64,000 bases of DNA from Geomonas agri (GTDB taxonomy: Bacteria; Desulfobacterota; Desulfuromonadia; Geobacterales; Geobacteraceae): assembly GCF_020179605.1 (NCBI RefSeq), contig NZ_JAINZO010000001.1, forward strand, positions 1,834,799 through 1,898,798. Reading direction: 5' to 3'. The position numbers were made by a program, and so were the translations under genes. The notes beneath the pieces were generated by a model. That model worked only from the letters and a program-made list of their open reading frames with translations. It was not told the DNA's origin and searched no databases. Each line of letters begins with the position of its first letter. The stretch's first letter is position 1. This document shows, piece after piece, positions 8,388 through 60,154 of the stretch.

Positions 8388-8831
8388 TCACTTTGACTGC
8401 AAGCGCCGGAACCAGGCCACCACCGCTTCTGCCGACTGGGCCCCGGCCAGTTGATCGACCGACTTGCCCTTGCGCACGAGGTGCAGCACCGGGATGCCGC
8501 GCACCCCGAAGCGCCCCGCCAGCGCCGGGCTCTCATCCGTGTTGACCTGGACCACCACCGCCTCCCCGGCAAGGAGTGCCGCCACCTTTCGCACCGCCGG
8601 TGCGAATGAGACGCAGTGCGGTCACCAGGGGGCCCAGAATTCCGCCAGCACCGGGCCGGGATAGGCCGCGAGGAAGGCGTCGAAGTCGGCGTCGTGGAGC
8701 GCGCGGGGCGTACTGTAGAGCGGCGGGAGCTTGGCGCGGCAGTTACCGCAGGTCCCGGCCACCCCCTCCTTGTCGGCGGGGATGCGGTTCACGGTGCCGC
8801 ACGCGGGGCACTTGAGCTGGTATGAAGTCAT
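8388..8831 (-). CDS. Thioredoxin 2-like protein with probable selenocysteine (UxxC active site)
   Basis: Read through one in-frame TGA, this gives 147 residues. Residues 8-32 hold a CPAC...CGNC zinc-ribbon as in TrxC. The thioredoxin fold follows with VLAEFWAPW, then TGA at 8622-8624, then PHC: the TGA takes the place of the first active-site Cys (U70-P-H-C73). The rest of the fold continues unbroken: VAALLAG, VVQVNTDESPALAGRFGVRG, cis-Pro in GIPVLHLV, and a C-terminal helix. AAGGAGGA precedes the ATG. An 8-bp hairpin with a GGC loop begins 15 bases after the TGA, where a bacterial SECIS element is expected. Thioredoxin 2 reduces disulfides in the cytoplasm. A frameshift-free pseudogene is the alternative, but a stop landing exactly on the redox Cys beside such a hairpin argues for Sec. 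Confidence 0.85.
8588..8606 (-). promoter_or_regulatory. Probable bacterial SECIS hairpin
   Basis: The minus strand reads TTCGCACC-GGC-GGTGCGAA, an 8-bp perfect stem with a three-base loop starting with two G. The loop lies 23 nt after the TGA codon at 8622-8624. Known bacterial SECIS elements lie inside the coding region just after the UGA, with the loop roughly 16-37 nt downstream and a G in its first two positions; this one fits. SelB binding is inferred, not shown. Confidence 0.75.
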
Positions 8832-8987
8832 ATCTTCCTCCTTTACACGGAATTGGAACTGGAGAATTCTACCACCCTGCCGGCGATCCAGCCCGTTGCT
8901 TACTTTTCATCACGCATTCTGCGTTTCACATTTCTGCGCTTTCTGGTATGTTGGGGTGTTCGAAAATCAACCGGAGGTTTTGTACCG

Positions 8988-59880: not shown

Positions 59881-60154
59881 AAAAAAAGCCTCCGCCCCAG
59901 TAAGGGGCGAAGGCTTCTGAAAGCTTCCGCGGTACCACCCTCATTCATCCGTCGACGACGGACCTCTTGGGCCCTTTACGCGGGCTGACGGCCACAGCTA
60001 GCACCGGCCAATTCCCCTTTCGGAAAATAGAACGACCGTTGTTCACCGAGACGGCTCCAAGGCGAGTTCACCTGCTTCCTCACCGGTTTGCACCAACCAC
60101 CGGCTCTCTGTAGGGGAAGGGAAAGGCTACTACTCCTCATCACTGCCTTTAGTT
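59881..60154 (-). promoter_or_regulatory. T-box riboswitch leader of leuA (leucine specifier)
   Basis: Read on the minus strand the leader has an almost complete T-box: AGGGTGGTACCGCGG at 59940-59926, with an antiterminator-competing terminator hairpin just after it (GCCTTCGCCCC with GGGGCGGAGGC, 59913-59887, then six T). Stem I contains AGAGAGCCGGTGGTTGGTG and, near its base, GGTGAACTCGCCTTGGAGC; the specifier codon appears to be CTC at 60065-60063, a Leu codon. Uncharged tRNA-Leu should stabilise the antiterminator and allow leuA transcription. This agrees with the gene downstream. Exact pairing was not computed. Confidence 0.92.

Follow-up and report, generated by a model that had tools for sequence, protein, structure and literature searches.

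Gene, reading frame and domains of the protein

The window, which is the whole 64-kb stretch of Geomonas agri DNA that was analysed, contains on its minus strand a predicted gene for a thioredoxin with selenocysteine (Sec) in its active site. The locus comprises the following features:

8388..8831, minus strand: selenoprotein thioredoxin gene (predicted) with Sec at codon 70; 147 residues when TGA is translated as U
8837..8843, minus strand: Shine-Dalgarno-like AAGGAGG upstream of the ATG, read by eye
8733..8810, minus strand: N-terminal zinc ribbon with Cys 8, 11, 28 and 31 (PF21352, 3.1e-7)
8409..8702, minus strand: thioredoxin domain, residues 44-141 (PF00085; AlphaFold model)
8622..8624, minus strand: in-frame TGA, codon 70, first position of the UxxC active site; 76 TGA and 21 TGC/TGT among 97 distinct homologues
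8588..8606, minus strand: SECIS-like hairpin of 8 bp with a GGC triloop; pairing kept, wobble bases frozen and paired double changes present in homologues

The gene starts with the ATG at 8831 and ends with the stop codon TGA at 8390-8388 of the minus strand. The only TGA triplets in this frame are codon 70 (8624-8622) and the terminal stop. The residues around codon 70 read EFWAPW-U-PHC, with Sec replacing the first active-site cysteine. An earlier sequence-only reading of the locus had placed an in-frame TGA at this cysteine (W-U-P-H-C) without naming a strand, and the codon was located there on the minus strand. The plus strand of 8388-8831 was rejected as coding because its translation contains three TGAs and no thioredoxin.

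The same reading described the thioredoxin fold as intact across the TGA, in agreement with the Pfam Thioredoxin match (PF00085), which spans the codon and covers residues 44-141 with an E-value of 1.8e-24 when U is entered as C. Residues 8-33 match Zn_ribbon_Thio2 (PF21352; E 3.1e-7, 30.6 bits versus a cut-off of 27.1), and the zinc-ribbon cysteines 8, 11, 28, and 31 do not vary across an alignment of 15 rows, of which two are identical. The AlphaFold model of the protein has a mean pLDDT of 92.6; its input was a 15-row alignment (two rows identical) in which Sec was entered as Cys. The top Foldseek matches to the model are the Trx2 crystal structures 7ysi, 2ppt, 7d6l, and 3p2a.

A frame of 48 residues is positioned downstream of the thioredoxin gene and ahead of a sensor kinase (window 8289-8143, minus strand). 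It is also found in Geomonas anaerohicana (L047 3540-3692) and is conserved between that species and the window.

Hairpin downstream of the TGA codon

The sequence TTCGCACC-GGC-GGTGCGAA forms a perfect 8-bp stem that starts 15 nt after the TGA and was found at 8606-8588, as the sequence-only reading had proposed. The loop of 3 nt begins 23 nt after the TGA, and the 45 nt that follow the TGA fold with an energy of -17.7 kcal/mol into a structure that includes the hairpin. For bSECIS elements, passages of the 2026 review PMC13188914 quote an upper stem of 4-16 bp, a loop of 3-9 nt with G at the first two places, a distance of 16-37 nt between UGA and loop, and an energy no higher than -7.5 kcal/mol. 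The hairpin lies within every one of these quoted limits (8 bp, 3 nt, GG, 23 nt, -17.7 kcal/mol), and the claim that it stands at the distance of a bacterial SECIS was thus borne out. There are four perfect stems of at least 8 bp with a 3-nt loop in the whole window, the hairpin at the TGA among them. Synonymous recoding of the 20 residues after the TGA, with the peptide and the local codon usage held, yielded a perfect stem of at least 8 bp, with a loop that starts with GG 16-37 nt from the UGA, in 4 of 20,000 sequences. Rfam at gathering scores reports no SECIS in the window; its only match is a T-box leader at 59900-60152 on the minus strand (110.3 bits, gathering score 93).

Homologues were collected from the family and the class. 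One or two thioredoxin matches with an in-frame TGA are present in 38 of the 48 genomes of the family (40 sequences), whereas the other ten contain no TGA-bearing match and just a weaker TGA-free thioredoxin match. The class search of 277 genomes returned matches with E-values of 1e-24 or better in 96. All family and class matches at this threshold, together with eleven of the 17 loci from the search for relatives, form the set; six distant Cys thioredoxins (L058-L063) and the selA and selD loci (L064-L065) were excluded beforehand. The resulting 112 loci were reduced to 97 distinct ones by removal of 15 that are identical over 300 nt, and many of those retained are close relatives and so not independent. 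The nearest named relative among the matches listed is Geomonas anaerohicana with 91%, from a search that may omit records very near the genome of the window. Mechanical identification of open reading frames at its thioredoxin locus gives two, of 69 residues each.

Codon 70 is TGA in 76 of the 97 distinct homologues, TGC in 12, and TGT in 9. This alignment with cysteine homologues, which had been suggested as a check, separates the 21 Cys sequences into 12 orthologues, with C-P-H-C in eleven and C-T-H-C in one, and nine more distant forms, with CGPC in eight and CGYC in one. In the homologues with TGA the protein is conserved on both sides of codon 70. Trp 69 is replaced by Thr in 14 distinct TGA sequences. 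Five genomes (G006, G007, G201, G202, and G243) contain two TGA-bearing thioredoxin copies apiece; in the first four, one copy has Trp 69 and the other Thr, and in G243 both have Thr.

The eight base pairs of the hairpin are all present in 69 of the 76 TGA sequences, seven are present in six, and six in one. The innermost pair is broken in register in L037. Altogether 600 of 608 paired cells are kept, a number that was reached in 0 of 2000 shuffles, which ignore relatedness. The first two places of the loop are G in 76 of 76. Changes that maintain pairing by substitution on both sides are found at pair 3 (C-G to T-A, four sequences) and at pair 2 (T-A to A-T, one sequence). The third-base entropy of the four-fold codons 77, 78, 79, and 80 in the TGA sequences is 0.18, 0, 0, and 0 bits, with codon 79 computed over its 39 Ala sequences, while the 39 others scored among codons 58-115 range from 0.53 bits (codon 75) to 1.96 bits and exceed 1 bit at 34 positions. 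Where the stem has its foot, at codon 81, the entropy is 1.03 bits in the same sequences. The corresponding values for the Cys orthologues are 1.89 bits at codon 78 (nine sequences) and 0.87 bits at codon 80 (eleven sequences); codon 77 is changed from Ala to Glu in seven of the 12.

The nine distant Cys forms have only 1-4 of the 8 hairpin pairs. Among the 12 orthologous Cys sequences, three have seven pairs with an inner break, seven have 3-5 pairs, and two, L109 (genome G265) and L125 (genome G196), retain the intact hairpin with 8 of 8. Folded at minimum energy, the 45 nt that follow the TGA hold the inner five pairs in 58 of the 76 TGA sequences and lack them in 18.

Reading of the UGA codon

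The genome that carries the thioredoxin gene (4.68 Mb in seven contigs) encodes the complete set of selA, selB, selC, and selD, the genes whose absence had been named in advance as evidence against a selenoprotein. All score above their curated cut-offs: the tRNA-Sec (selC) with 74.9 bits versus a gathering score of 47, SelB with 395.9 bits, SelA with 602.6 bits, and SelD, which has an in-frame TGA of its own, with 359.2 bits. A thioredoxin reductase, TrxB, was identified with 390.3 bits. A first tRNA-Sec search at E 0.001 produced matches in 14 of 14 control genomes, over the cut-off in 5, and therefore a tRNA-Sec was counted only if it scored above the gathering score or had an E-value of at most 1e-9 (the latter threshold gives matches in 3 of 14 controls). 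Three tRNA-Sec matches over the cut-off are present in genome G265, and two SelB and two tRNA-Sec are present in each of G085 and G089.

We estimate a probability of about 0.96 that the gene encodes a zinc-ribbon thioredoxin whose attacking residue is Sec and whose UGA is read by means of the hairpin and SelB, as predicted from comparison of sequences. The hairpin 15 nt downstream would recruit SelB with Sec-tRNA(Sec), so that the UGA at codon 70 would be read as Sec; the Sec-tRNA(Sec) would be made by SelA with selenophosphate supplied by SelD. The finished protein, which is probably cytoplasmic, may reduce disulfides through a U70-C73 selenenylsulfide and be recharged by thioredoxin reductase as its presumed partner. 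We infer the insertion of Sec in vivo and the substrates as parts of this explanation. The candidate selenoprotein passes every computational test of function applied here.

The thioredoxin gene could be decaying, with the TGA as a nonsense mutation. One member of the family, L041 from genome G004, has two further in-frame stops, and because of these the copy is interpreted as decaying or as misassembled or poorly assembled. Genome G004 is 78% complete and contains SelB, with no tRNA-Sec match at E 1e-9. Against decay of the family as a whole, 76 distinct homologues have TGA at this very codon, the RNA is constrained directly after it, and the other TGA sequences of the family and class searches are without further stops. 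A TAA in L112 was considered as a sign of decay and rejected, as this codon is where the L112 gene normally ends. Decay or sequencing error was rejected because the TGA is found again in different genera and in separate assemblies; the expectation of the sequence-only reading that the gene is not decaying is upheld, and a pseudogene is very unlikely. It is just as improbable that the UGA is read by ordinary near-cognate suppression, for example as Trp, which would place a non-redox residue at position 70. A UGA followed by C, as here, is a weak stop context. However, codon 70 specifies Cys in all 21 homologues without TGA, and suppression of this kind would explain neither the hairpin nor the Sec machinery.

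It is also conceivable that Sec is inserted and that the hairpin has no part in the insertion, acting instead on mRNA stability or pausing. The 18 of 76 TGA sequences in which the 45 nt have a different minimum-energy fold are in favor of such a function. However, full pairing tracks the TGA, with 69 of 76 TGA sequences having it and 10 of 12 orthologous Cys sequences lacking it, and the hairpin is positioned at the published SECIS distance. We consider an unrelated element slightly less improbable than the two preceding alternatives, although still highly unlikely, and favor reading of the UGA as Sec directed by the hairpin.

Sec/Cys history and known relatives

The relationships of the Sec and Cys forms were approximated with a quick tree, calculated with the U/C site masked from few alignment columns, which leaves 40 of its 94 inner branches open. 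Four Sec/Cys changes are needed on this tree; shuffled assignments need 19.3 on average, and 0 of 500 shuffles needed as few as four. Well-supported branches alone force three changes. A tree with all Sec sequences on one side of a branch was rejected (p-AU 0.00115). The 12 orthologous Cys sequences fall within the Sec clade at three points, as a group of ten, in which the hairpin is not intact, and as the singles L109 and L125. These 12 forms are probably returns from Sec to Cys, as judged from their placement. From this nesting and the shared hairpin, we read the history as a single gain of Sec that was followed by about three reversions to Cys on the best tree. The designation of three returns as a minimum was dropped, since no more than three changes overall are forced by the branches with good support.

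Ten of the 12 genomes with Cys orthologues retain SelB and tRNA-Sec, which indicates that Sec was in most cases still available when Cys replaced it; in G235 and G238, neither was found at the thresholds used. L109 and L125 are apparent recent changes from Sec to Cys with a leftover SECIS. Their assemblies are drafts (about 40 contigs for L109 and about 570 for L125), in either of which a one-base consensus error is possible, and the L125 match starts only at residue 20. Table 1 of the 2006 survey (PMC1794560), which covers 7 thioredoxin sequences, records no Sec/Cys conversion for this family.

Pro and His directly follow Sec in 76 of 76 TGA sequences. Selenenylsulfides are more reducing than disulfides, and one may speculate, by analogy, that the invariant Pro-His dipeptide offsets the strongly reducing Se-S bond. 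In a passage of PMC4395160, CPHC placed in one thioredoxin shifted the potential by +66 mV, which is still far from DsbA. We propose tentatively, as a picture somewhat more likely to fail in some part than to hold throughout, a Sec thioredoxin that spans the order, was converted to Cys about three times, mostly with the machinery kept, has left hairpins behind in two single sequences, and uses Pro-His to tune its selenenylsulfide for a duty other than the ordinary one.

The 76 Sec and 12 Cys versions, with near-identical surroundings of the active site and two leftover SECIS hairpins, constitute a natural series, which may be used to study when selenium repays its cost and how the constraint on the RNA relaxes after the loss of Sec. 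Such a gene would be split by gene-calling software in which UGA counts as a stop.

The sequence-only reading called the product a functional TrxC-type selenoprotein. The Sec part of this designation is supported, and the predicted architecture, an N-terminal zinc ribbon followed by a thioredoxin domain, is shared with thioredoxin 2 (TrxC), which is also the best NCBIfam match. However, assignment to the TrxC equivalog was rejected with a score of 101.1 versus a cut-off of 125 bits, and TrxC has Cys and CGPC in place of Sec and U-P-H-C. A search of PDB sequences gives PDI A4 first and Trx2 third, and a search by structure gives Trx2 first. The Pro-His between the redox residues is the same in DsbA and in the CPHC thioredoxins AfTrx1 and Patrx2, according to passages of PMC4395160 and PMC12830090, whereas the protein from the window differs from them by its N-terminal zinc ribbon and Sec. 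Membership in the DsbA family was rejected, because the match to PF01323 (Pfam DSBA) is insignificant (E 0.11, 12.7 bits versus a cut-off of 25.6).

Passages of PMC5877670 and PMC2398784 mention Geobacter selenoproteins or Sec thioredoxins, none naming this protein. A passage of PMC13188914 lists the family 'Thioredoxin (Trx) PF00085 UxxC' as experimentally verified, citing Kim et al. 2015, and the protein from the window shares with it a PF00085 domain that has UxxC as its active site. Selenoproteins had been expected from Geobacter relatives, and passages of PMC1794560 list a thioredoxin among those of G. metallireducens, G. sulfurreducens, and 'G. uraniumreducens', and of PMC1914089 list GSU3446 as a TGA-containing thioredoxin. 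These thioredoxins likewise have an in-frame TGA and belong to the same lineage, in species other than Geomonas agri; the same passages describe no conservation of a SECIS for the family. From its spread over the family, the gene is very probably orthologous to the Geobacter selenoprotein thioredoxins, including GSU3446. It joins a family already published, the Geobacter selenium thioredoxins predicted in 2006-2007, as one more member from one more species. Judged against openly licensed papers, the new parts are possibly the Pro-His dipeptide, which is invariant and DsbA-like, and the Sec-to-Cys returns in which hairpins were left over.
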